The notes: generated by a model from the sequence alone, not told the origin. A stretch of DNA of 64,000 nucleotides from Fibrobacter sp. UWH6 (GCF_900142465.1 NZ_FRAX01000004.1:62001-126000), one strand, 5' to 3'; positions 7,989-24,439 are shown, counted from the stretch's first letter. A program made the numbers and translations.

Positions 7989-9515
<1,527 letters not shown>

Positions 9516-9726: not shown

Positions 9727-11085
9727 ATGAAACGAAAAATTCTTGACGAACTTTTGCAATGGAAGAATCGCAACGACCGAAAACCGCTCATACTGCGGGG
9801 TGTTCGCCAATGCGGAAAAACGTGGGCATTAAAGGAATTTGGCCGCACCTGCTTTGAAAACGTAGCCTATTTCAACTTCGATTTTGATCAAAACCTCGCT
9901 TCTGTTTTCGAAAGCACAAAGGATCCCAAGCGCTTGATTCCGCAACTTTCCCTGTTGAGCGGAGTCCCCATAGAACCGCAAAAAACGCTCATTGTATTTG
10001 ATGAAATCCAATGCTGCGGCAAGGCGCTGAATAGCCTCAAATATTTTTGCGAAGACGCTCCGGAATATGCGGTGGCAAGTGCAGGCTCGTTGCTCGGAGT
10101 ATCGCTTTCGAAAGATGGATTCCCTGTTGGGAAGGTTCAGTTCCTGGATGCCTATCCCATGGATTTCGAAGAGTTTCTGACTGCATCAGGTGCAGAGAAC
10201 TTTGCATATTACATGCAGACCATTGACTCTCTAGAAAATATTCCGCTTGCATTTGCAGCCCCGCTCGAAGAAAAACTCAAGCAGTATTTTGTAAGCGGGG
10301 GAATGCCAGGCGTTGTCAAAAACTTTGTTCGAAATTACGATTCCATCCAGGCGGAATACGGGCTTGATGAATTAAACGATTCTTACGAACGTGATTTTGC
10401 ACGCCATGCCGATCGCGGTGATTTTCCCAAAATATCCTTAATCTGGAAATCCGTTCCGTCACAGCTTGCGCGTGAAAACAAGAAGTTCTTGTATAGTGCG
10501 GCAAAACCCGGAGCCCGCGCCCGCGAATACGAGAATGCACTGATGTGGCTGGTAAATGCTGGCCTTGCGTACAAAGTAGCCCGTATCAAGAAGCCGGGAA
10601 TACCCTTGTTGGCGTACGAAGATTTGTCCGCCTTCAAAATCTATATGGCCGATGTAGGCCTATTGCGCAGACTTTCGGGTATGACTCCGCAAACCGTCAT
10701 CTTAGGCGATGCACTCTACACTGAATTCCACGGAGCTTTTGCCGAAAACTATGTGCTGCAGGTGCTACGCAAACAATACGGCAAAAATATATTCTACTGG
10801 ACCGATGAAAATTCAAGATACGAAGTGGACTTCATCATCCAACACGAAAACCTCATTATCCCGGTAGAAGTGAAGTCCGGTAAAAACATCGTTTCGACCA
10901 GCATGAAAAACTACGCGAGTCGTTTTGATGATATCACAAAACTACGCGTCCGCTTCTCCATGAAAAACCTGGCCCTCGACGAGAACGTTCTGAACATCCC
11001 GCTTTATCTCGCCGACCAGGCGAAGCGCCTCATTGGACTGGCCGCTGAGAAACTCGATATGAAAAGTGAGGTCGCATCGCCTTGA
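9727..11085 (+). CDS. AAA ATPase with DUF4143 C-terminal domain
   Basis: 452 residues. Walker A is GVRQCGKT (residues 25-32) and Walker B ends in FDE (Asp92-Glu93). The C-terminal half is DUF4143, including 'EVDFIIQ' and 'PVEVKSG', which resemble the D-x-n-ExK core of PD-(D/E)xK nucleases. Such proteins are abundant, often duplicated and horizontally moved; their role is unknown, though some have been linked to defence or to toxin-like behaviour. Here it sits between hsdM and hsdS. Its lower codon bias and A/T-richness compared with hsdM suggest it inserted into the restriction locus rather than being an integral subunit. Confidence 0.85.
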   Translation: MKRKILDELLQWKNRNDRKPLILRGVRQCGKTWALKEFGRTCFENVAYFNFDFDQNLASVFESTKDPKRLIPQLSLLSGVPIEPQKTLIVFDEIQCCGKALNSLKYFCEDAPEYAVASAGSLLGVSLSKDGFPVGKVQFLDAYPMDFEEFLTASGAENFAYYMQTIDSLENIPLAFAAPLEEKLKQYFVSGGMPGVVKNFVRNYDSIQAEYGLDELNDSYERDFARHADRGDFPKISLIWKSVPSQLARENKKFLYSAAKPGARAREYENALMWLVNAGLAYKVARIKKPGIPLLAYEDLSAFKIYMADVGLLRRLSGMTPQTVILGDALYTEFHGAFAENYVLQVLRKQYGKNIFYWTDENSRYEVDFIIQHENLIIPVEVKSGKNIVSTSMKNYASRFDDITKLRVRFSMKNLALDENVLNIPLYLADQAKRLIGLAAEKLDMKSEVASP

Positions 11086-11219: not shown

Positions 11220-12341
11220 ATGAGTGAATGGAAAGAATGTTTATTGGGCGACTTTATTGAGTTGCATAGGGGATATGACTTAACAAAAACATCCATTGTT
11301 AAAGGACCGTATCCTGTTGTTTGCTCAACTTCTATCATGGGATATCATAATGAATTTAAAGTGAAAGGTCCAGGGGTTGTGATAGGTCGTTCAGGAACAT
11401 TGGGTGAAGTTCAGTATGTTGAATCCGACTATTGGCCTCATAATACATCACTTTATGTTTCCGATTTTAAGGGAAATGATCCGAAATTTGTTAAGTATTT
11501 TCTTCAACGTTTTGGAACGGGAAATGTCGGTAGTGGTTCAGCAGTTCCCACATTGAATAGAAATCATATACAAGCATTGAAGATAAAGGTTCCCCCGCTT
11601 GCAGATCAGCAACGAATCGCCGGCATCCTCTCCGCCCTTGACGACAAAATCGAACTCAACAATAAGATAAACGATAATTTAGAGAAACAAGCCCAAGCCC
11701 TCTTCAAAAACTGGTTCATCGACTACGCCCCCTTCGGCGGTGTAATGCCTGATGATTGGATAGAAGGAAAACTTGGTGATTTCGTTGAAATCAAAAGAGG
11801 TGGCTCGCCCCGTCCCATTCAAGAATATTTGTCCGATTCAGGTTATCGCTGGTTGAAAATATCTGATGTAACCTCTTTGAATTCTCCGTTCATTCTTGAA
11901 ATCGCAGAATATATTAAGGAAACGGGTCTTAATAAAACTGTTTTCTTGAAGGCGGGATCTTTGGTATTGTCAAATAGTGCCACGCCAGGAATTCCTAAAA
12001 TTTTAGATTTAGATTCCTGCATTCATGATGGATGGCTTTATTTTCCACAATCAAAACTTACAAACGAATTTTTATATCTCTTCTTTAAAGAAATACGCAA
12101 GGATCTTGTCAACTTAGGGAATGGCAGTATTTTTACCAATCTCAAGACCGAAATTCTAAAAAATTTTGAAATTACTTTACCCTCACAAAAAATTTTAGAT
12201 GACTTCCAAAAAATTGTAGAATCTCTTTTTATTCAAATGTTGAATATTCAAAGAGAAATTCAACGCCTAACCACCCTCCGCGACACACTTCTCCCGAAGC
12301 TTATGTCCGGTGAAATGAATGTGGAAAATATCCAGATTTAG
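11220..12341 (+). CDS. hsdS: Type I restriction-modification system, specificity (S) subunit, complete expressed copy
   Basis: 373 residues with the usual two target-recognition domains (TRD1 about residues 1-130, TRD2 about 180-340). These are separated by a conserved helical region and closed by a second one ('IQRLTTLRDTLLPKLMSGE'). It fixes the two half-sites of the DNA target. The 16-base site ATAAACGATAATTTAG at 11667-11682 encodes I150-NDNL in the central helix, and the inverted site at 12346-12361 follows the stop. The C-terminal half can therefore be inverted against the TRD1 half-gene on the other strand. The final 107 bases (12255-12361) are nearly identical to the end of the silent module at 14520-14626. 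Confidence 0.93.
   Translation: MSEWKECLLGDFIELHRGYDLTKTSIVKGPYPVVCSTSIMGYHNEFKVKGPGVVIGRSGTLGEVQYVESDYWPHNTSLYVSDFKGNDPKFVKYFLQRFGTGNVGSGSAVPTLNRNHIQALKIKVPPLADQQRIAGILSALDDKIELNNKINDNLEKQAQALFKNWFIDYAPFGGVMPDDWIEGKLGDFVEIKRGGSPRPIQEYLSDSGYRWLKISDVTSLNSPFILEIAEYIKETGLNKTVFLKAGSLVLSNSATPGIPKILDLDSCIHDGWLYFPQSKLTNEFLYLFFKEIRKDLVNLGNGSIFTNLKTEILKNFEITLPSQKILDDFQKIVESLFIQMLNIQREIQRLTTLRDTLLPKLMSGEMNVENIQI
11667..11682 (+). repeat. hsdS inversion site A
   Basis: ATAAACGATAATTTAG inside hsdS codons 150-155. Homology with site C extends to the right for about 81 bases (11669-11749 against 13916-13996, one mismatch seen). Confidence 0.85.
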
Positions 12342-12880
12342 GCCGCTAAATTATCGTTTATTTTAGCATTCAATTCAATCTTATCGTCTAATGACGATAA
12401 GATTTTTGATATTCTTTTTTGTTCTTCAAATGGAGGAACTTGAACTGGAATCTGTTGCATGGTCTTTCCAGAAACTTCTTTGAAGGTTGTTCCGCTACCC
12501 ATACTTTCAATTAGGTCTTTATTATACAATAAAAGATAATACAGGAACATGTAATCTGTATTTTCATTCGGAATAACGCTTTTGAATCCTTGATTAGTAC
12601 ATACTTCATTTGCAGCAATCGCAACATATCCAATGGGTGCACGTGAGGTGAACAGAATGGAATTTTTAGGGAGTAGTTGAGTTGAACAGCTTTTTAAACC
12701 ATGTTCGGTAATATTACGTTCACCATGAGAAATGAAACGACTTTTGTGATTAGAAAGGTCTTTAGGCGTTATCCAAGCAATCTGGCCACCATCGTAATTA
12801 TTGGGATTTGTTGTTGATGGTGTAGCACCGCCAACAACGGTGCCGATATCTGCTATTGTACATTTTTTCCAATTATCCAT
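12338..12880 (-). CDS. Inverted hsdS half-gene encoding an alternative TRD1 module
   Basis: 180 residues equal to the N-terminal half of an HsdS: one TRD ('VVGGATPSTTNPNNYDGG' and so on) followed by the central helix 'LDDKIELNAKINDNL'. It ends Ala-Ala-stop immediately after the inverted site B (12346-12361). It overlaps the end of hsdS by 4 bases on the opposite strand and begins 5 bases after the stop of the recombinase gene, so it is probably on the recombinase transcript. An inversion A-B would fuse this TRD1 to the TRD2 of hsdS. An inversion B-C would fuse it to the silent TRD2 at 13917-14606. As it stands it could make a half-S protein, which in some systems dimerises. Confidence 0.9.
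   Translation of the reverse strand: MDNWKKCTIADIGTVVGGATPSTTNPNNYDGGQIAWITPKDLSNHKSRFISHGERNITEHGLKSCSTQLLPKNSILFTSRAPIGYVAIAANEVCTNQGFKSVIPNENTDYMFLYYLLLYNKDLIESMGSGTTFKEVSGKTMQQIPVQVPPFEEQKRISKILSSLDDKIELNAKINDNLAA
12346..12361 (-). repeat. hsdS inversion site B (inverted)
   Basis: CTAAATTATCGTTTAT, the exact reverse complement of site A, at the junction of hsdS and the inverted half-gene. Confidence 0.85.
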
Positions 12881-12885
12881 AATAA

Positions 12886-13881
12886 TTATCCAATATATTT
12901 CTTGTGCGCAAGTTTCACATTTGATTGTTTCACCATAGCGTATTGCAATGTTGTGTCGATGCGTTGGTGTCCTAAAAAGCGTTGCAGTTGCTCAATAGGC
13001 ATTCCTTTGTCAATCGCCATTGTTGCCAGAGTTCTCCTGAATTTATGCGGATGAACTCTGTTGATGTCGAGTTGCCTTCCGAATTTTCGCAGACGACTTT
13101 CTATGCCGCTAATAGTAATTCTTGTTGCTGGTTTTCTAAGAGAAACAAATAAAGCCTCGTTCGAATCTGTCCTACTCTCTAAATATTGCTGTAAATGCAG
13201 TTTGGTCCTCGCATCAAAATAAACTACTCGTTCCTTATTCCCCTTGCCGAAAACAATACATTCGCGCTCTGTAAAATTGATGTCTTGCTTGTTCAGCAAT
13301 ACCATTTCGCCAATACGCATGCCAGTAGAGGCAAGAGTGTCAATAACCGCAATATCCCTAGGCGTCGCACAGCTATCACGAAGTCGCTCTAGTTCTTCAT
13401 CGCTATAAGTTTCTTTAATGATTTTATCGGTTTTTACCTTGTGAATCCTGCGAATTGGACTCTTGAAAATATATTCTTCATCTTCAAGCCAAGAAAAGAA
13501 ACTAGAGAAAATGCGCCTGATATTATCGATTGTAACCTTGCTGGAATTTTTACGCTGTTGGTAGCTGGTCAGGTATTGTCTAACATCGTCTGTAGAAATT
13601 TTCTTGATGTTCTTTGATATGCCGAGAATGAAATCCTGGATGGTCTTTTGATAATATTGCAAGGTTTTCTCGGAACAGCCCTCGATTCTCTTCGCTGCAA
13701 TAAACGCTTTTACCAACTGTTGATCAAGATTCTCGTTAAAAGATGTCTCACTTTGCTGATTTGACAAAATTTCAACAGAACTGAATGCAGAATCTAATGC
13801 GTTACTCAAAATCTCAAGCTGAGCATTGTCCAAAGAATTCAACATATCCTGCATAATTTGATCTTTTATCACTTTTTTCAT
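12886..13881 (-). CDS. Tyrosine recombinase, probable hsdS invertase
   Basis: 331 residues. There is an N-terminal SAM-like core-binding domain (about 60-160), then the catalytic domain: the Arg of 'STGMRIGE', the box 'HPHKFRRTLAT' (His-x-x-Arg), 'LGHQRIDTT' and the nucleophile Tyr314. All expected catalytic residues are present. The gene lies between the inverted TRD1 half-gene and the silent TRD2 half-gene, within the outer pair of 14-16 bp sites. This is the arrangement of dedicated hsdS recombinases (such as those of streptococcal inverting type I loci). The inferred role is strand exchange at sites A-D. It is not a phage integrase by context, as no phage genes are present. Confidence 0.9.
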   Translation of the reverse strand: MKKVIKDQIMQDMLNSLDNAQLEILSNALDSAFSSVEILSNQQSETSFNENLDQQLVKAFIAAKRIEGCSEKTLQYYQKTIQDFILGISKNIKKISTDDVRQYLTSYQQRKNSSKVTIDNIRRIFSSFFSWLEDEEYIFKSPIRRIHKVKTDKIIKETYSDEELERLRDSCATPRDIAVIDTLASTGMRIGEMVLLNKQDINFTERECIVFGKGNKERVVYFDARTKLHLQQYLESRTDSNEALFVSLRKPATRITISGIESRLRKFGRQLDINRVHPHKFRRTLATMAIDKGMPIEQLQRFLGHQRIDTTLQYAMVKQSNVKLAHKKYIG

Positions 13882-13913
13882 AAATATAACTCCTTGATTT
13901 GTGCCATATTTAA

Positions 13914-14606
13914 GAAAACGATAATTTAGAGAAACAAGCCCAAGCTCTCTTCAAAAACTGGTTCATCGACTACGCCCCCTTCGGCGGTGTAATGCCAGAA
14001 GATTGGAGAGAAGTTTCCTTGAGAGAATGTTGTTCTTCAATTACTGATGGTGTTCATAACACTGTTGTTGATGATTCTAATGGGGATTGTCTCTTGCTGA
14101 GCTGTAAAAATATTAAGGGTGGGGTTCTGTCAATTGGTTCTGATGAACGTAAGATTAATCGAGAAACGTTTGATAAACTTAGAAAACGAACAAAACTAGC
14201 TAAGGGCGATATTCTGCTTTCATCCGTAGGAACTGTTGGAGAAATGCTCTTGTTGAAAACAGAACCAGAAAATATAGAGTTTCAGCGAAGTGTTGCGATT
14301 ATCAAGCCAAATTATGATGTTATAAGCTCTGAGTTCTTGTACAATTCATTGAACTTGCAGAAAGAAATGGTTACAAATGCAGCTCATGGTGCCGTTCAGC
14401 AATGTCTCTTTTTGTCTGACATTGGCGACTTCAAAACAATATTGCCGACATCAGATTATATGGAAAAATACACAGTAATTATTTCTCCATATTACGAACA
14501 AATCTCAAAAAATCAACAAGAAATTCAACGCCTAACCACCCTCCGCGACACCCTTCTCCCAAAACTCATGTCCGGCGAAATAGATGTGGAAAATATCCAG
14601 ATTTAG
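13914..14606 (+). pseudogene. Silent hsdS half-gene, alternative TRD2 module
   Basis: An open frame follows a TAA at 13911-13913 and starts directly in site C (AAC GAT AAT TTA GAG AAA). It reproduces the central region of hsdS ('EKQAQALFKNWFIDYAPFGG') and continues with a TRD unrelated to the expressed TRD2 ('WREVSLRECCSSITDGVHN'). It closes with the same C-terminal helix and last 107 bases as hsdS. There is no start signal of its own (the internal ATG 13992 encodes the Met of GGVMPEDW). I therefore read it as a donor cassette that becomes expressed only after recombination at site C. Confidence 0.88.
13916..13929 (+). repeat. hsdS inversion site C
   Basis: AAACGATAATTTAG, 14 bases shared with site A. 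The two preceding bases differ, which places the left border of the conserved site. Confidence 0.8.
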
Positions 14607-14610
14607 GCTG

Positions 14611-14626
14611 CTAAATTATCGTTTAT
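14611..14626 (-). repeat. hsdS inversion site D (inverted)
   Basis: CTAAATTATCGTTTAT immediately after the silent TRD2 module, identical to site B. Confidence 0.82.
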
Positions 14627-15060
14627 TGTTCAACAAGAATCTTAAACAAGACCCTAAAAGTTGTCGAACTATTTTTTGTACAAATTGAATATGTCGGACC
14701 ATAGTAATGCGACCGGAGTAATGGAAATCGGTTCCTTGGAAAAGCCACCATTCTTGTTTATGAAATTTGCTTACGGCTGAATAAAATTTGTTTCTTTCAT
14801 TCGCATATACATTGTGTCTTTTAATACGTTTGGTAGCGCTTCTTTCGCACGAATAGGCTTATGAAATCCCGCACGAATACAATGCACTGAATTTAAAGAA
14901 ATAAATGATTTTGGAATAGGAGGCTCTACAGGTTGAGAATGGTGTTTTTTTCTGGATTGGCGGCTCCACCGCACCGGAATATTCAATATTTCAAAAAGTC
15001 AAAACATCATTAGGAATGATATGACTTGTTGTAATATAGAATGTTGCATCCCATCAAATA
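14627..15060. other. Gap downstream of the hsdS array; one weak 71-codon frame
   Basis: The only notable open frame is on the minus strand (14771-14986), with A/T-rich codons, no clear RBS and no recognised family. It could be a gene remnant. No repeat or mobile-element ends were seen. Confidence 0.3.
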
Positions 15061-15115: not shown

Positions 15116-16195
15116 TTAACTATTTTGTTGGAATAATTTTTTCCAGCCGGGAAAATGAATCTCATCAGCAATCATATCTAGTAGATCGTCAATAGATCCT
15201 GTTTTTGGAGTGTAATTGTTGAGTTTTGCGTTTAAAAGGTAGGTGAATCCTTCAAAGTATTTGTTTTGAAATAAATAACATACTCCTAAAAAATAATAAG
15301 CTGAATGTTTTAATGCGTCTTTTTCGTTAAGTAGAAGTTTGAACGCATCTATTGCGTCGCTAATCTTTTTTTGTCTGAAGAAAGAAAGAGCTTTTGTTTT
15401 TTTGCTGTATGGATCTAATTTAGCATTGTCAATTTTTTGGATTTCTTCATCTTTTCCATTTTTAAACAGCTCCCACACATATTTGCGGGGCAAGTTTTCG
15501 GTTTTGCTTGAAGATGTGCAATCGTCTGAAGCTGATTTGTCAAGGATAGGGTTTTTAGAATCTTTTTCAGAAATTGCGTTGTTTGATTTCCGAGAAATTG
15601 ATTCCTCAGGGTCTTCAGAATTTTCACAATCTTGATTTTGTATGGTTGTTTGAATTCTCTGTTCTTTGCTTGTTTGAATTGGATTTTCGTCAAGATAATT
15701 TTTTAATTGCTCTTCTAAATCATCCATATCGAAACGGTTGTATTTTAAAATGAATAAGTCAGAACAATCTGAAAGAGCTGTGTATATATCAAGTTTTGGA
15801 TTGATAATGGTATATTTTTCTCCATTAATCGCCGGAACAGATAAAGGGTCTGGATACAAGTTCCTTACTAAAATTGTAGCATCCTTTTCGCATAAACAAA
15901 GAATTTTTTTGTTTTCAAGTGCCGCAGCGTACCCCATTTCGTAAACAACATTTGGTCGTAGGCCATCAAGTAATACAATGATTAAATTGGCATCTTTAAT
16001 TTGTTTTTGAAAGTTTCGTCTAATCGTATCGTCCGCTTTAAATGAGTTCGCATCATAGTTTATTTCAATATCTGCTGATTCAAAGGTTTTTTTTATGGTC
16101 TTTATAGTTGAGTTGATATACTCAATTCCATCGCAAATAGGGTGATAGAGCGATGCTTTTTCGTTATTCCATGCGTGAACAATAAATGCTTTCAT
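15116..16195 (-). CDS. TIR-like / nucleoside-deoxyribosyltransferase-fold protein with TPR-like C-terminus
   Basis: 359 residues. The N-terminal 150 residues have the order of a TIR-like NAD/nucleotide-binding fold: strand 'MKAFIVHAW', a helix, 'ANLIIVLLDGLRPNVVYEMGYAAALENKKILCL'-type strand-loop-helix with a conserved Asn82 and Glu86, the position of the catalytic Glu in this superfamily. A charged Ser/Glu/Asn-rich linker (about 175-235) leads to a helical repeat region resembling TPRs ('YYFLGVCYLFQNKYFEG'). In a defence island this layout (sensor repeats plus TIR-like effector) suggests an abortive-infection NADase or nucleotide hydrolase. That is inference. The domain is not a canonical TIR and could be a 2-deoxyribosyltransferase-like binder. 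Confidence 0.7.
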   Translation of the reverse strand: MKAFIVHAWNNEKASLYHPICDGIEYINSTIKTIKKTFESADIEINYDANSFKADDTIRRNFQKQIKDANLIIVLLDGLRPNVVYEMGYAAALENKKILCLCEKDATILVRNLYPDPLSVPAINGEKYTIINPKLDIYTALSDCSDLFILKYNRFDMDDLEEQLKNYLDENPIQTSKEQRIQTTIQNQDCENSEDPEESISRKSNNAISEKDSKNPILDKSASDDCTSSSKTENLPRKYVWELFKNGKDEEIQKIDNAKLDPYSKKTKALSFFRQKKISDAIDAFKLLLNEKDALKHSAYYFLGVCYLFQNKYFEGFTYLLNAKLNNYTPKTGSIDDLLDMIADEIHFPGWKKLFQQNS

Positions 16196-16342: not shown

Positions 16343-16717
16343 ATGTCCACCATCCTTCTTTCCATCCATCCCGAATACGTTCGGCAAATCCTCGCCGGTT
16401 CAAAGAAGTTCGAGTTCCGTCGCAACGTGGCCAAGCGCCATGTGGACCGGATTCTCATTTACTCAACTTCGCCGGAAATGAAGGTCGTGGGCTCGGTTTC
16501 CGTTCTGGGCGTGCTGAAGGATACCCCCAAAAAGCTTTGGCAAAAGACGAAGGACTTCTCCGGAATTTCCCATGGCAAGTATATGGAATACTTCTCGAAG
16601 CGGGAATTCGCCTATGCGTACCAGCTGGGCGAAGTGACGATGTTCAAAGAGCCCAAAAGCCTTTCCGACTACGGAATCACCACCGCCCCGCAGTCCTTTG
16701 CATATATTGACGCGTAA
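16343..16717 (+). CDS. ASCH domain protein
   Basis: 124 residues comprising a single ASCH domain. The family hallmark is at the N-terminus, 'LLSIHPEYVRQILAGSKKFEFRR' in short segments: a strand, then K-x-x-E-x-R. Predicted roles of ASCH proteins are RNA or modified-nucleotide binding, related to PUA/EVE folds that recognise modified bases. EVE/ASCH-like genes are enriched near restriction systems, which fits this location. It is divergent from the TIR-like gene and convergent with the TOPRIM gene (2 bases apart at the 3' ends). Confidence 0.82.
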   Translation: MSTILLSIHPEYVRQILAGSKKFEFRRNVAKRHVDRILIYSTSPEMKVVGSVSVLGVLKDTPKKLWQKTKDFSGISHGKYMEYFSKREFAYAYQLGEVTMFKEPKSLSDYGITTAPQSFAYIDA

Positions 16718-16719
16718 AC

Positions 16720-17436
16720 CTACCCAAATACCAACCCAAAATTCGTTCGTCTTTCCAGAGAATTGCATCCAATTTGGATTTGCTTCCAGGACTCCTTATA
16801 GTTCTCAGCAAGGAGAAGTTTCGGATCTGCCTTGAATGAAAAATCGGACTTTGAAATGAAATTGACGAATTCGGGGATGTTGTCTCTGTAATGCAGGGCG
16901 AATTCCAGTGCGTCTTTTTCCTTGTCTTGGTCATTGGAATTTTGCTTGTTGTACAGCACGTGATCCAGGTTGCAAGACATATAGTAGGCGTTGTAAGGAA
17001 CCTTCCAAATGGTCGGTGCGCTAGCCAGTCTCAAAAGGTTCTTTGACTTTCTGGAATTTCGTTCAATAATGTTTTCGCGGACGGGGCAAAGGATTTTTTC
17101 CAAGGTATAGAAGGGGTAGGCAATGTCACTTTGCTCCACTTTGTCCTCGGGAATGAAAGCGCCATCTGTGTCTACTATGTGAATGATACGTTCAAAATGT
17201 TCCGGCTTTAAGCGGTTGGTGTCAGCCCATCTCTTAACAACTTCTGCGATTTTCTTTGTAATGTCTGCAGAACCGACTTTTTGACGGGTGTCCTTGTCGA
17301 ATTCCGTTGTGATGTCGCAATGCATCACATGAGTGTAAACGGAATCCTTGTTGAAATAGCGGGAAAGAATCACGCCCAGGGCCGTTTCATCGGAGGGGCC
17401 CTCTACAATGACAAACACGACCTTTTTACGAGCCAT
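16720..17436 (-). CDS. TOPRIM-domain protein (OLD/AriB/RloB-like), partner of the AAA15 ATPase
   Basis: 238 residues from ATG 17436, chosen because AGGAGG lies 5 bases upstream; longer in-frame versions lack this. The start of the domain, 'VVFVIVEGPSDE', gives the TOPRIM Glu12. The second motif 'IIHIVDTDG' gives Asp89-x-Asp91, the metal-binding pair. The gene overlaps the 3' end of the AAA15 ATPase gene by 11 bases, so the two are translationally coupled. An ATPase of this class with a separate TOPRIM nuclease is the arrangement of PARIS (AriA/AriB), RloAB and class 2 OLD/Gabija-like defence. Which of these it belongs to cannot be settled by eye. Confidence 0.75.
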   Translation of the reverse strand: MARKKVVFVIVEGPSDETALGVILSRYFNKDSVYTHVMHCDITTEFDKDTRQKVGSADITKKIAEVVKRWADTNRLKPEHFERIIHIVDTDGAFIPEDKVEQSDIAYPFYTLEKILCPVRENIIERNSRKSKNLLRLASAPTIWKVPYNAYYMSCNLDHVLYNKQNSNDQDKEKDALEFALHYRDNIPEFVNFISKSDFSFKADPKLLLAENYKESWKQIQIGCNSLERRTNFGLVFG

Positions 17437-18805
17437 TGGAGCCTCCTGCAATCTTGAATGCCAAGGCAATCTCGGAATTGTTGGTGGTCTCGTAAACGGG
17501 TTCGCTCTGCTCGCCAAGAATAATGTCGCGGTAATAGAAGTCTCGCAAATTGTTGGTTGTCTTGACTCCGCTAAAGCGAATGTACCTGTTCATTGGATTT
17601 GTGGTGGTGAACACGATAAAATTCTTGTCCAGCGTTTCCAAAGGGCGCAAGTTGTGGGACGTAAATAGCAATTGGCCTTTACCCTTTTCAGAAATGATTC
17701 TGAGAATTTCACCAAGCAGGTATTCAAAAATACCGGAGTCCAGTTCGTCGATGGCGACTGTAATGGAATGGTTGTTGTAAACGTCGATGAGTAACGACAG
17801 GATAGATATAATTTTCTTGACGCCGTCGGATTCCATAGCTAAAGGAAATTCGTGGCCATCTTTGCTGGATGTCATTTGCACAATATGGCCCGGTATGCCG
17901 TTTTGCATGAGTTCCTGGCCAAGATGTTTCAAGCCTACTTTAAGATTGGGAACAATCTGCGGCAACACAATGTTCAAACTGCTGATGGTTCGTTCCAAAA
18001 TCTGAAGGATATGCGGTGCGACCGTATTGGGCCTGTTCAAGGGCAACAGCAAACTTCCTGACTTATGATCCTCATTGTGGTCCAGAGAAATGTGGATGGG
18101 CATGTCGTTCAAGGTGATTCGCCCTGTCGATGCTGTTCTAATCACAAAGAGCTCTCGTGCGCCATAATTTGCCAAACGTTCCAAAATGAAGTTTGTTTCT
18201 TCGGACTGTATGGCATCGTGCATTTCCTTTGAAAAGATAAAGGATGCTGTATTTGCCTCTGCCATCTTTTTTGCGACAAGCAAAGCGGTTTTCTTGTTTT
18301 TGTCTTTGCCGATAAGTGCGTCGTATTTTGATTTCGGCACAAAAGGAGCTTCGCTATCGGTATCTATATAGTCTACAAACTTTGTTGAGGTGTCTTTATT
18401 CTTGCTGGAATAGGAAATCTTTTCGTTGCAAATGATCAGCTTGGTATTGCGGTTGCTATCTTCTTTCTTCAATGTGAAGCAATAGACAACCTTGTAGTTG
18501 GTTTCGGCTTCAACGTCTTCAATGGCAAATTCAAATTCAAGACGTGCAGATTCGCTATCTACGTTAATGCAGGATGCAAAATAATTCGTAATGGTGGGGT
18601 CCATAGGATACCCCAGAAGACAATGCTTCAGCAAACTCATTGCTTCGATAATAGCCGTTTTACCGGAGCCGTTTTGCCCGTAAATGCCGACAATGCAGGC
18701 TCCATTTTCCACCTTGCGAACTAGGGAAATTTCACCTTTTTTGACATTTTTGAAGTTCTCCAGGAGAATTCTTTTTAAGCTAACGGTTGAGTTTTTCATA
18801 CCCAT
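17426..18805 (-). CDS. AAA15/AAA21-family ATPase (RloA/AriA-like)
   Basis: 459 residues. An ABC-type ATPase head of the SMC/RecF class: 'LKRILLENFKNVKKGEI' strand start, Walker A GQNGSGKT (residues 43-50). A long insertion is followed by the C-terminal 'TVAIDELDSGI' Walker B/D-loop and 'LLFTSHNLRPLE' with the switch His. It ends overlapping the TOPRIM gene. It probably forms an ATPase-nuclease defence complex with it. The start could be ATG 18805 or ATG 18799 (Met-Gly-Met); neither has a strong ribosome-binding site. Upstream lie three TTTTGACA/TGTCAAAA half-sites. Confidence 0.82.
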   Translation of the reverse strand: MGMKNSTVSLKRILLENFKNVKKGEISLVRKVENGACIVGIYGQNGSGKTAIIEAMSLLKHCLLGYPMDPTITNYFASCINVDSESARLEFEFAIEDVEAETNYKVVYCFTLKKEDSNRNTKLIICNEKISYSSKNKDTSTKFVDYIDTDSEAPFVPKSKYDALIGKDKNKKTALLVAKKMAEANTASFIFSKEMHDAIQSEETNFILERLANYGARELFVIRTASTGRITLNDMPIHISLDHNEDHKSGSLLLPLNRPNTVAPHILQILERTISSLNIVLPQIVPNLKVGLKHLGQELMQNGIPGHIVQMTSSKDGHEFPLAMESDGVKKIISILSLLIDVYNNHSITVAIDELDSGIFEYLLGEILRIISEKGKGQLLFTSHNLRPLETLDKNFIVFTTTNPMNRYIRFSGVKTTNNLRDFYYRDIILGEQSEPVYETTNNSEIALAFKIAGGSNGS

Positions 18806-19818: not shown

Positions 19819-22800
19819 ATGCCAATCTACGACGAAAATGCTTACGAGCAGTGCTTAAAGGAACTATTCCAGGATGTTCTGGGATGGGATTACCGTTATG
19901 GCCCCGACGTAGATAGAGATTTCCATAGCCCGTTACTGGATTCTGTACTTGAGGAATCGATCCGTAGGATCAATCCCAAGGCTGCGCCCGAGGCTATCGA
20001 AGAGGCCCTGAATAAGGTCCGCAACTTCGAAAACGATGATCTTGTAAAGCAGAATGCCCTGTTCATGGATTACATCCAGTGTGGCGTTGAGGTCAGTTAT
20101 CATAAGGCAGGGGAGACCAAGTCCGATATCATCTACCTTGTGGATTACAAGGACGTTGATAACAATTCTTTCATTTTTGCAAACCAGTGGACCTTTATCG
20201 AAAAGTCCAACAAGCGGCCCGACGTGCTCTTGTTCTTGAATGGTTTGCCTGTTTGCCTTTTTGAATTGAAGTCTCCCAGCCGCGAAGAGACCGACGCCAG
20301 CGAAGCTTACCTGCAAATCCGCAATTATATGCAGGAGATTCCTACGCTGTTTATCTATAACTGCATCTGCGTCATGTCTGACCAGCTGATTTCAAAAGCC
20401 GGTACCATTACCAGCGGCGAAGACCGCTTTATGGAATGGAAAACCAAGGATGGTAACCGTGAATCTGGTGCTATTGCAGACTTTTCCACCTTCTTTGAAG
20501 GAATCTTCCAGAAGGATCGACTTCTTGATATTATCAAGAACTTCATCTGCTTCAATAACGATGGATTAAAGACTTTTAAGATTCTGTCTGGCTACCATCA
20601 GTATTTTGCAGTGCGCAAGGCTGTAGAACGAACTAAGCAAGCTGTAAGTGGCGATGGCAAAATCGGCGTTTTCTGGCATACCCAGGGCTCCGGAAAATCC
20701 CTTTCCATGGTGTTCTATGCCAACTTGCTTCAGTCCAGCATCGAAAGCCCGACCATTGTGGTGATTACGGACAGAAACGATCTGGATAACCAGCTGTATG
20801 GCCAGTTTGCCAACTGTAAGGATTTCCTACGTCAGGAACCTGTTCAGGCTGAATCTCGCGAGCACCTGAAGAAGTTGCTTAATGGTCGTAAGGCCAACGG
20901 CATCATCTTTACCACCATGCAGAAGTTCGAGGAATCCGACGAACCTCTGTCTGATCGCCGCAATATCATTGTGATGGCTGATGAAGCCCATCGCGGTCAG
21001 TATGGTTTAGCAGAAAAGGTAAAGACTTCCGAAGATGCTTCTGGTAATTTAGTAGTCCGCACCATAAAGGGTACAGCTCGCATTATTCGTGACAGTCTGC
21101 CCAATGCAAGCTTCATCGGCTTTACGGGTACGCCCATTAGCCGTGAAGATCGCAACACCACGGAAGTTTTTGGTGGCTATATTGATATTTACGATATGAC
21201 CCAGGCTGTGGAAGATGGTGCAACTCGCCCTGTCTATTATGAAAGCCGAGTTGTCCGCCTAAAGTTGGACGACAAGGTCCTTGCCCAGATTGATTCTGAA
21301 TATGATATGTTGGCTGGGGGTGCCTCTCCGGAAATCATTGAGAAAAGCAAGCATGAATTAGGCCAGCTAGAAGCAATTCTCGGTCACGAAAAGACAATCA
21401 ACTCCTTGGTTGATGACATCCTGGAACACTACGAAACTAATCGTCAGGATCTTTATACTGGCAAGGCCATGATTGTGGCTTATTCTCGTGGCATTGCCAT
21501 GAAGATGTTTAATCGTATTCTGGAACTGCGTCCTGAATGGGCAGGAACCACATCTCAAGTGATGGTGGGTGATCAAACCGTAACAGTTCCCGGAGAAGAT
21601 GCAAAGATTGCCGTGGTCATGACCGAAAGCAACAAGGATCCCGAAACATGGCATCCTATTGTGGGCAATAAGACTCACCGCCAGGAATTGGCTGTAAGAT
21701 TCAAGGACAATAAAGGTCCGTTGAAAATCGTGATTGTGGTGGACATGTGGCTTACGGGATTCGACGTTCCGTCCCTTGCGACCATGTACGTCTTTAAGCC
21801 GATGGAAAGCCATAACCTGATGCAGGCCATTGCACGCGTAAACCGAGTCTACGAAGACAAGGAAGGCGGCCTGGTGGTAGATTACATCGGTATCGCCAGC
21901 GCATTAAAACGTGCCATGAACGACTATACCGTTCGTGACCGTAAGAACTATGGCGAAATGGACATTGCAAAACAGGCTTTGCCCAAGGCCCAGGAAAAAC
22001 TGGAAATTTGCCGTAGCCTGTTCCATGGATTCGACTACTCCGATTTCTTCAGCAATTCCTCGCTGAAGATGGGTGTATGCATTACCGATGCATTGAACTT
22101 TATTTTAGAGAAAAGCCGCGAAGAACAGAAGAAGTCTTTTGTCAAAGAAGCCTTGATGCTTCGCCAATCCCTCTCACTATGCTCTTCCATAGCTCCTGCA
22201 GAAATGCGAAACGAAGCGAACTTCTTTGAAGCAGTTCGTGTGCAGCTCATGCGCTTTATGTATGGCGCAGGCAAGAGCAAGGTTACCCTCAAGGATGTAA
22301 ACGCACGAATCAACGAATTGCTGAAGCAAAGCGTAAAATCTAAAGGCGTTCTAAATCTGTTCAGTAGTGTAGGGGAGAACTTCTCCCTGTTTGATCCCAA
22401 GTTCCTTGAAGATGTGGCCAAGATGAAACACAAGAACATCGCGGTGGAAATCTTGAAGAAACTTATCGAGGAACAAGTTCGGGTTTATTCCAGAACGAAT
22501 ATCGTGAACTCCCAGAAGTTCTCGGAGCTTTTCCATCAGGCCATGAACCGTTACCTGAACGGTCAGCTAACCAACGAAGAAGTAATCCAGGAATTGCTGA
22601 AGTTGGCAAGTAGCATTTCCGACGCCGCTGCTTCTGGCGAAAAGCTTGGCCTGACCAAGGAAGAAACCGCATTCTACGATGCCCTTACAAGCCCCGAAGG
22701 GATTCGTAAGGCGTATAGCGACGAGCAGTTTATCGCACTTACTAAGGAGCTTACAGAAAAGCTTCGTAAGAGCCGCACCATCGACTGGCAACGAAAGGAA

Positions 22801-23070
22801 AGCGCCCGCGCCTCCATGCGCACCGCCATCAAGAAACTCCTCAAGAAATACAAGTACCCGCCCGAAGGCTGGGAAAGTGCCATCAAGACCGTAATCACCC
22901 AGTGCGAACTCTGGACCGACAACGAAGAAATGTTTGACAGCATGCGCGCCGCGAATTCCGCAGAAGGAAGTGCAAACGCAAATAAGAACATCGCCGGTAA
23001 TCAGCTATACTTCGCACCCGGAGACGATGTGACCAGCTACGGAATTGCTGCGGATAAAGGGATAAATTAG
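19819..23070 (+). CDS. hsdR: Type I restriction endonuclease (R) subunit
   Basis: 1083 residues. The N-terminal nuclease domain has Asp135 and Glu149-Leu-Lys151 (D-x13-ExK). The SF2 translocase has Walker A 'HTQGSGKS' (Lys293) and the DEAH box at residues 388-391, then 'FIGFTGTPI' (motif III) and a long helical C-terminus that binds HsdM. It translocates and cuts DNA lacking the methylation set by hsdM/hsdS. It lies 10 kb from hsdM, separated by the hsdS array, a TIR-like gene, an ASCH gene, the AAA/TOPRIM pair and a toxin-antitoxin pair. It is intact and is the only R gene here, so it presumably works with the invertible hsdS. Confidence 0.95.
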   Translation: MPIYDENAYEQCLKELFQDVLGWDYRYGPDVDRDFHSPLLDSVLEESIRRINPKAAPEAIEEALNKVRNFENDDLVKQNALFMDYIQCGVEVSYHKAGETKSDIIYLVDYKDVDNNSFIFANQWTFIEKSNKRPDVLLFLNGLPVCLFELKSPSREETDASEAYLQIRNYMQEIPTLFIYNCICVMSDQLISKAGTITSGEDRFMEWKTKDGNRESGAIADFSTFFEGIFQKDRLLDIIKNFICFNNDGLKTFKILSGYHQYFAVRKAVERTKQAVSGDGKIGVFWHTQGSGKSLSMVFYANLLQSSIESPTIVVITDRNDLDNQLYGQFANCKDFLRQEPVQAESREHLKKLLNGRKANGIIFTTMQKFEESDEPLSDRRNIIVMADEAHRGQYGLAEKVKTSEDASGNLVVRTIKGTARIIRDSLPNASFIGFTGTPISREDRNTTEVFGGYIDIYDMTQAVEDGATRPVYYESRVVRLKLDDKVLAQIDSEYDMLAGGASPEIIEKSKHELGQLEAILGHEKTINSLVDDILEHYETNRQDLYTGKAMIVAYSRGIAMKMFNRILELRPEWAGTTSQVMVGDQTVTVPGEDAKIAVVMTESNKDPETWHPIVGNKTHRQELAVRFKDNKGPLKIVIVVDMWLTGFDVPSLATMYVFKPMESHNLMQAIARVNRVYEDKEGGLVVDYIGIASALKRAMNDYTVRDRKNYGEMDIAKQALPKAQEKLEICRSLFHGFDYSDFFSNSSLKMGVCITDALNFILEKSREEQKKSFVKEALMLRQSLSLCSSIAPAEMRNEANFFEAVRVQLMRFMYGAGKSKVTLKDVNARINELLKQSVKSKGVLNLFSSVGENFSLFDPKFLEDVAKMKHKNIAVEILKKLIEEQVRVYSRTNIVNSQKFSELFHQAMNRYLNGQLTNEEVIQELLKLASSISDAAASGEKLGLTKEETAFYDALTSPEGIRKAYSDEQFIALTKELTEKLRKSRTIDWQRKESARASMRTAIKKLLKKYKYPPEGWESAIKTVITQCELWTDNEEMFDSMRAANSAEGSANANKNIAGNQLYFAPGDDVTSYGIAADKGIN

Positions 23071-23182: not shown

Positions 23183-24439
23183 ATGCCCACTCTCTCTTTT
23201 AAAGATGCTGCTATAAAGATTCTTCACGAATCAAAACATCCCATGACTCCCATTGAAATTTATCAAATTGCAGCAAAGCAGCAGTTGGTAAAAACTTCAG
23301 GTAAAACTCCGGAAGCTACAATGGGTGCGCAAATTTATACAGATATTAAAAAGAACGGAGCTAATTCTCCTTTTGTCCAAGTGGGTAAGGGTTTGTTCAC
23401 TGCTGCGACTAAGTCTAATAAAGAAAAAAGTCCTGAACAGCTGATTCTTGAATATAATGAGGCTCAGACGATAGCTTTGAAAGAACGCCTGTTGAATACA
23501 GATCCGTTTATTTTTGAACATCTCATCGGAGATCTTCTCGAAAAACTTGGTTATGAGAATGTAGAAGTGACTAAGCGGTCTGGAGATGGAGGCATAGATG
23601 TAAAAGCGAATCTTACTGTTTATGGTTTTACAAATGTTAAAACCGCCGTTCAAGTTAAACGATATTCTCACAATGTTAGTGACAATGTTGTTAGAGAACT
23701 TCGCGGCGCTGCAGAAGTTGATCAGAGAGGTTTGATTATTACAACTGCTGATTTCACAAAGGCTGCTAAAGAAGAGGCTTCCGCTCCAAATAAAATGCCG
23801 GTTTCCCTTGTTAATGGGAAAAAACTTTTAGAGTTGCTGATTAAGTATGAAATAGGTGTCAAGTCCAAAAAGACAGAATTGATTTCTTTGGATGAAGACT
23901 ATTTTGAATCTTTAGAGGACGATGATTCTAGTTTGATTTTGGAAAAAAGGATGTCTATTTGGCCTTTGCCAGGCGGAATCGATCATTATTATGATTCTTT
24001 GCTTGATGTTTTGAATGCACTAAAAAGCCAGCCCAAGTCAAAAGAAGATATGGTGAAATGGTTTAAAACACAATATGATTCTGTAAATAGTGATAAAACA
24101 ATTGCTAGCTACATGAGTACGATTTTCTCAAATCTCGGCTTAGTTCAACTTGTCGATAAAAAATATAAACTAACGCCTTCTGCAGAATCTTTCATAGAAA
24201 ACCCTTCAAAAGATGCTGCTTTTGAAATATTGAACGAACGAATTTTTGGAATTGAAGAAACATTGTCTTTTGTTGAAAACTCTGAAAACCCCGTATCGGA
24301 CAATGATGTTCGTATCTATCTCAATGATAATTTCAATGTAGATTGGTCCACAAATGCGCAGGCTTCATTTAGGCTTCTGTGGCTTTGGAATCTTGGTAAA
24401 ATTCAACGCAATGAAGATGGAAGGTATAGTAAGCTATGA
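23183..24439 (+). CDS. HARE-HTH plus Mrr-type restriction endonuclease
   Basis: 418 residues. Residues 1-72 form a HARE-HTH winged helix ('FKDAAIKILHESKHPMT', 'IYTDIKKNG', 'FVQVGKGLF'), a domain known to be joined to restriction enzymes and proposed to sense modified DNA. Residues about 110-205 are an Mrr-type PD-(D/E)xK nuclease with Asp139 and Gln157-Val-Lys159. The C-terminal 180 residues are helical, with no family recognised. The stop overlaps the start of the next DUF262 gene (ATGA), marking an operon of three intact genes. A modification-dependent (type IV) restriction activity is inferred. Confidence 0.85.
   Translation: MPTLSFKDAAIKILHESKHPMTPIEIYQIAAKQQLVKTSGKTPEATMGAQIYTDIKKNGANSPFVQVGKGLFTAATKSNKEKSPEQLILEYNEAQTIALKERLLNTDPFIFEHLIGDLLEKLGYENVEVTKRSGDGGIDVKANLTVYGFTNVKTAVQVKRYSHNVSDNVVRELRGAAEVDQRGLIITTADFTKAAKEEASAPNKMPVSLVNGKKLLELLIKYEIGVKSKKTELISLDEDYFESLEDDDSSLILEKRMSIWPLPGGIDHYYDSLLDVLNALKSQPKSKEDMVKWFKTQYDSVNSDKTIASYMSTIFSNLGLVQLVDKKYKLTPSAESFIENPSKDAAFEILNERIFGIEETLSFVENSENPVSDNDVRIYLNDNFNVDWSTNAQASFRLLWLWNLGKIQRNEDGRYSKL

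Follow-up and report, generated by a model that had tools for sequence, protein, structure and literature searches.

A probable four-site inverting specificity switch in a type I restriction-modification locus of Fibrobacter sp. UWH6

Does a type I restriction-modification (R-M) locus that holds one complete hsdS gene, two hsdS half-genes and a recombinase gene keep a fixed specificity, or can it exchange its TRDs? The question is raised by a locus of Fibrobacter sp. UWH6, located in a 64-kb stretch of DNA that was analysed as a whole (the window). The features on which the answer depends are the following.

7989..9515, plus strand: hsdM, type I methyltransferase subunit (Pfam N6_Mtase, 7.5e-110, and HsdM_N; PADLOC MTase_I)
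11220..12341, plus strand: complete hsdS (TRD1-TRD2), 373 aa, spanning site A (Methylase_S, 8.6e-38)
11668..11682, plus strand: site A, TAAACGATAATTTAG, inside the coding sequence of the hsdS central helix
11669..11766 and 13916-14013, plus strand: A/C direct repeat, 98 nt, 96%, coding for the second half of the central helix
12234..12362 and 14499-14627, plus strand: B/D direct repeat, 129 nt, 88%, coding for the C-terminal helix plus the site
12338..12880, minus strand: TRD1' half-gene, 180 aa, ending in KINDNLAA and a stop at site B (Methylase_S, 1.1e-39)
12346..12360, minus strand: site B, where both the TRD2 cassette and the TRD1' half-gene end
12886..13881, minus strand: tyrosine recombinase, XerA-like, 331 aa (Phage_integrase, 9.8e-32; NF040815)
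13915..13929, plus strand: site C, AAAACGATAATTTAG, first base differs; starts the silent TRD2' cassette
13992..14606, plus strand: silent TRD2' half-gene, 204 aa (Methylase_S, 2.1e-5; PADLOC Specificity_I, 3e-33)
14611..14625, minus strand: site D, closing the silent TRD2' cassette
19819..23070, plus strand: hsdR, intact gene for the type I restriction subunit, 1083 aa (TIGR00348, 7.9e-179; PADLOC REase_I)

All three genes of the type I R-M system, hsdM, hsdS and hsdR, are intact. The window HsdS matches the HsdS of PDB 1yf2 (7e-27). Between hsdS and hsdR lie TRD1' and the recombinase gene on the minus strand and TRD2' on the plus strand, with the TRD1' half-gene starting 5 nt past the recombinase stop. 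The assignment of the recombinase gene to the tyrosine recombinases, made in an earlier note on this DNA, agrees with its Phage_integrase match, with an NF040815 score of 239.8 bits (cut-off 220) and with an alignment to PDB 4a8e, in which the catalytic motifs R-K-HxxR-H-Y are all present. The same note had the minus-strand half-gene end at site B and the silent module start at site C after a stop, as they do: the TRD2' reading frame is open from site C, at 13917, and an in-frame TAA lies directly 5' of the site at 13911-13913.

Several other genes accompany the locus. An ATPase gene of the AAA_14/DUF4143 type (9727-11085; PADLOC candidate PDC-S01, 5e-169) is placed between hsdM and hsdS, and is missing from the corresponding place in two related loci, L013 and L110. 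The product of 15116-16195 (minus strand), with a weakly matched Nuc_deoxyrib_tr/TIR-like N-terminal half and a TPR-like C-terminal half, is possibly a defence effector nested in the R-M locus. A small ASCH-domain protein is encoded amid defence-like genes at 16343-16717 (plus strand), and at 16720-18805 (minus strand) an AbiLi/AriA-like ATPase gene overlaps a DUF4276/AriB-like partner gene (weak match); a similar pair adjoins hsdR in L110 (3572-5383). Immediately 3' of hsdR, a Mrr-type restriction endonuclease with a HARE-HTH domain is encoded at 23183-24439 (plus strand).

The four-site arrangement claimed in the earlier note was found in full. The 14-mer AAACGATAATTTAG is exact, and in the claimed orientations, at 11669 (+, site A), 12346 (-), 13916 (+) and 14611 (-), and the flanks shared by A and C and by B and D are present at the lengths and identities listed above. 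The 3,921,019-base genome contains no other exact copy, and all four lie within 3 kb. A backwards control gave 0. Two one-mismatch copies occur elsewhere, and no HsdS-like reading frame was found at either place. Chance repeats were ruled out as an origin, the exact sites being four in 3.9 Mb and confined to those 3 kb. Ordered A+ B- C+ D-, the sites bracket two TRD2 cassettes; extra variable hsdS sequence shares inverted repeats with the expressed hsdS, a feature of inverting type I R-M systems. The unit conserved across relatives is 15 bp, TAAA-N6-TTTAG, and the spacer in the window is CGATAA. Site C has the arm AAAA for TAAA (leading T to A) and may be weaker through this one-base change. 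A second inverted repeat at the hsdS 5' ends was also sought, and no 12-mer is common to the 5' parts of TRD1 and TRD1' in the window or in most relatives.

The position of the site in the protein bears on how halves could be exchanged. In an AlphaFold2 model of the window HsdS (mean pLDDT 89.8) the central helix spans residues 127-167 and the C-terminal helix residues 323-362. The site codons, residues 150-154, fall in the middle of the central helix, so that hsdS crosses site A there, as had been proposed. They encode the invariant INxNL turn of this helix; when 36 HsdS of related loci were aligned, the site-encoded N151, N153 and L154 were among the few invariant columns. Since the site sits in the middle of the spacer helix between the TRDs, the halves are swappable without touching either TRD.

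The inversions themselves were carried out in silico. Flipping A-B joins TRD1' to TRD2 in an in-frame gene of 397 aa on the minus strand, immediately behind the recombinase, and reduces TRD1 to a 156-aa stub; flipping B-C creates an in-frame TRD1'-TRD2' gene of 403 aa and leaves TRD1-TRD2 unchanged. Both joins had been foreseen in the earlier note. The A-D flip leaves zero complete hsdS, and the C-D flip gives no new TRD pairing. When successive inversions were enumerated, 16 configurations were obtained that include all four TRD pairings, the number anticipated: TRD1 alone is complete in six, TRD1' alone in six, both in two and neither in two. In-frame new TRD pairings and a locus-encoded recombinase are further features of inverting type I R-M systems.

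Rearranged states of this kind are observed in relatives. In the Lactococcus plasmids pJM2A, pJM1A, pUC073A and pUCCL627F, whose recombinase is about 60% identical to that of the window, the recombinase segments are identical (1608/1608 bases) and the arrangements different. Cassette X of pJM2A is inverted in pJM1A at 100% identity, in pUCCL627F cassettes X and Y have traded places, both in inverted orientation and again at 100%, and the joints fall within TAAATCATCATTTAG. Both cassettes of pJM1A (L095, 5277-8182) are one and the same TRD2 at 100%, one specificity half having been lost there through duplication or conversion. Within the genus, L013 from Fibrobacter sp. UBA1765 is close to the window in hsdM (97.4% nt) and in the recombinase (92.4% DNA, 98% aa); their TRDs are dissimilar at the DNA level, where the central and tail repeats alone are retained. 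The metagenome contig of UBA1765 breaks off within the recombinase gene (L013, 1-880), where the assembly might have met mixed orientations. In another Fibrobacter locus, L110 (genome G097), the recombinase-side TRD1 has as its joined partner a TRD2 86% identical to that of the window, and the TRD1 on the hsdM side is cut short, which is the A-B type of state predicted earlier. L110 and a further locus, L111, have TRD1 in common at 98% and not the partner TRD2, while L111 and L013 have TRD2 in common at 82% with different TRD1. At a threshold of E 1e-25, no other genome of the genus gave a match to the TRD1 of the window.

The recombinase is distributed well beyond Fibrobacter. A search of genome contigs gave 80 loci (65-98% identity in the best segment) hosted by Bacillota, Treponema, Bacteroidales and others, and in the phylum of the window it is carried by 6 of 168 genomes. 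Across all samples, the +-+- site order with two cassettes around the recombinase was seen in about 74 distinct loci, mostly in Bacillota, including all completeness states of hsdS; cassettes are about 550-880 bp long (22 loci measured). A Streptococcus homologue, 67% identical (L040), also has the four-site layout. Family sites fit TAAA-N6-TTTA, with perfect arms in 286 of 308 copies, and the 6-bp spacer is the same in all four copies of a locus in 74 of 77 loci (about three of them counted twice owing to orientation; shuffle mean 0.44), with 15 spacer versions between loci. The search pattern favours the arms, and the spacer result is therefore the safer part. Matched spacers within a locus are expected if strand exchange by a tyrosine recombinase needs them, and common ancestry of the repeats could also contribute. 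In a tree the window and L013 group with ruminant Bacteroidales, Treponema and Lachnospiraceae (98/98), while two other Fibrobacter lineages fall apart from them, a placement that suggests horizontal transfer. Two other Fibrobacter genomes (L112, L113) hold recombinase relatives (62%) without TAAA-N6-TTTA sites, adjoining hsdS-like genes of a different type (type read in L112).

The number of complete genes follows a pattern in this family. Among loci with co-oriented recombinase and hsdM (L010-L155), exactly one complete hsdS is present in 61 of 67, both in three and none in three, where cassettes flipping independently would give 50%; these loci are related, and the significance of the count is only a guide. 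In the second sample alone the figure is 12/13. Selection for a single specificity, or concerted flips, would explain the pattern. Where the recombinase segment is opposed to hsdM, as in the window, TRD1 and TRD1' have a single cassette to compete for, and the presence of exactly one complete gene follows automatically. This opposed state occurs in only 6 of 74 family loci, so flips of the recombinase segment (B-C, A-D) may be rare.

Could the shuffling proceed mainly through the direct repeats (A/C, 98 bp; B/D, 129 bp), by excision and reintegration or RecA-dependent exchange, as in pneumococcal tvr, and not by inversion? The repeats are long enough for homologous exchange, tvr operates via direct repeats and circles (PMC6265443), and the duplicated cassette of pJM1A requires more than simple inversion. 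However, inversion of the Lactococcus cassettes, at 100% identity, has its joints at the short site, inverted site pairs are kept in all family loci, and no tvrA/tvrT-like genes were noted adjoining the recombinase; we consider this route unlikely.

It is also improbable that the half-genes are inert relics of past hsdS duplication and exchange, with a recombinase inactive on them and a fixed specificity. The recombinase is intact with complete catalytic motifs, the four 14-mers are exact with matched spacers, every half-gene is open up to the site, and in L013 the TRDs have changed while the backbone is still 97% identical; these points are set against the single orientation seen at the window locus, the inability of the half-genes by themselves to encode a normal HsdS, and the arm mismatch at site C. 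A very improbable reading is that the TRD1' half-protein works unaided, two half-subunits pairing so that a second, symmetric specificity arises with no inversion. For NgoAV, truncated forms of HsdS whose specificity is altered have been reported (PMC7394358), and TRD1' begins close behind the recombinase stop, but it retains only about half of the central helix (its end is the equivalent of residue 154 plus AA), and the site architecture would be unnecessary if this half-protein sufficed.

The locus is thus very likely a phase-variable, inverting type I R-M specificity switch, and is a further case of a known class. This reading is based on the parts of the locus, their frames, the conservation of the sites and the inversion in relatives. 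One orientation is known in strain UWH6, and we infer switching there from the anatomy of the locus and from its relatives; the earlier note was right on the structure and very probably right on the mechanism. The recombinase (12886-13881) would act on the four TAAA-N6-TTTA sites with their 6-bp spacer, inverting the DNA between oppositely oriented copies, and each crossover would fuse TRD1 or TRD1' in frame with TRD2, with TRD2' or with a stop tail of two residues. From the starting state, with TRD1-TRD2 complete on the hsdM side, the A-B flip would move TRD2 to TRD1' behind the recombinase and the B-C flip would join TRD1' to TRD2', with sixteen arrangements and four specificities reachable. 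The target of restriction and methylation would change in a reversible way, with mixed populations that could resist phages; gene expression may also be altered.

There is ample documentation of phase-variable type I loci with a recombinase of their own, among them cod/SpnIII with PsrA (CreX) and the 15-bp IR1 (PMC4948785, PMC4190663, PMC7096588), with further cases in Listeria (PMC4783014, PMC7662400) and L. reuteri (PMC6122466), a REBASE survey (PMC7394358) and 13 species in PMC5903667. Like the window, cod/SpnIII of S. pneumoniae has one expressed hsdS, truncated hsdS copies, a local tyrosine recombinase and several configurations; in pneumococcus a 15-bp inverted repeat drives TRD exchange, as the 15-bp site of the window would. 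The pneumococcal repeats are of three types (15, 85 and about 300 bp) and the silent copy has two TRDs, whereas the window has a single site type in four copies and silent half-genes, a comparison made from the published descriptions. The loci of Listeria monocytogenes CC8 (PMC4783014) and L. reuteri (LreRMII/lsrA, PMC6122466) likewise place hsdS around an integrase and reach four specificities from four TRDs via inversion; as published, they have two opposed hsdS genes and two repeat pairs (in Listeria, at the 5' end and the centre), whereas the window has the central site only, and each TRD2 cassette carries it again at its 3' end. The Lactococcus plasmids, the nearest proven cases in spite of a recombinase only about 60% identical, share the four-site layout, nearby hsdM and hsdR and the related recombinase, and their cassettes occur in both orientations; unlike the window, their recombinase segment is co-oriented with hsdM and their spacer is TCATCA. 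A further counterpart is UBA1765 (L013/G150), with the same locus, the same site and the TRD1-TRD2 plus TRD1' anatomy, and with every visible TRD different and the ATPase gene absent.

In a literature search that covered only a minority of subscription journals, no paper on a Fibrobacter system of this kind turned up. The earlier note knew of no description of the layout for this genus; this stands insofar as the host is little described, but the layout is not unusual, being widespread in Bacillota, Treponema and Bacteroidales. It is common in gut bacteria and not peculiar to Fibrobacter. Tentatively, and with rather more doubt than confidence, a widespread sub-class of inverting type I systems may be proposed, undescribed in the literature searched, in which one TAAA-N6-TTTA site occurs four times, cassettes are common to two N-terminal halves that are expressed from separate points (hsdM operon, recombinase operon), and by some rule or by selection the number of complete hsdS is held at exactly one.

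Fibrobacter is a major fibre-degrading gut genus. On the present reading the genus gains a phase-variable type I system driven by a recombinase, and the module is seen to cross phyla. The defined site offers a simple search handle and lets spacer homology and the exactly-one-hsdS pattern be tested directly. A switch of specificity alters phage defence and DNA uptake, and perhaps gene expression as well, and strain differences and failed genetic manipulation in Fibrobacter could depend on it.
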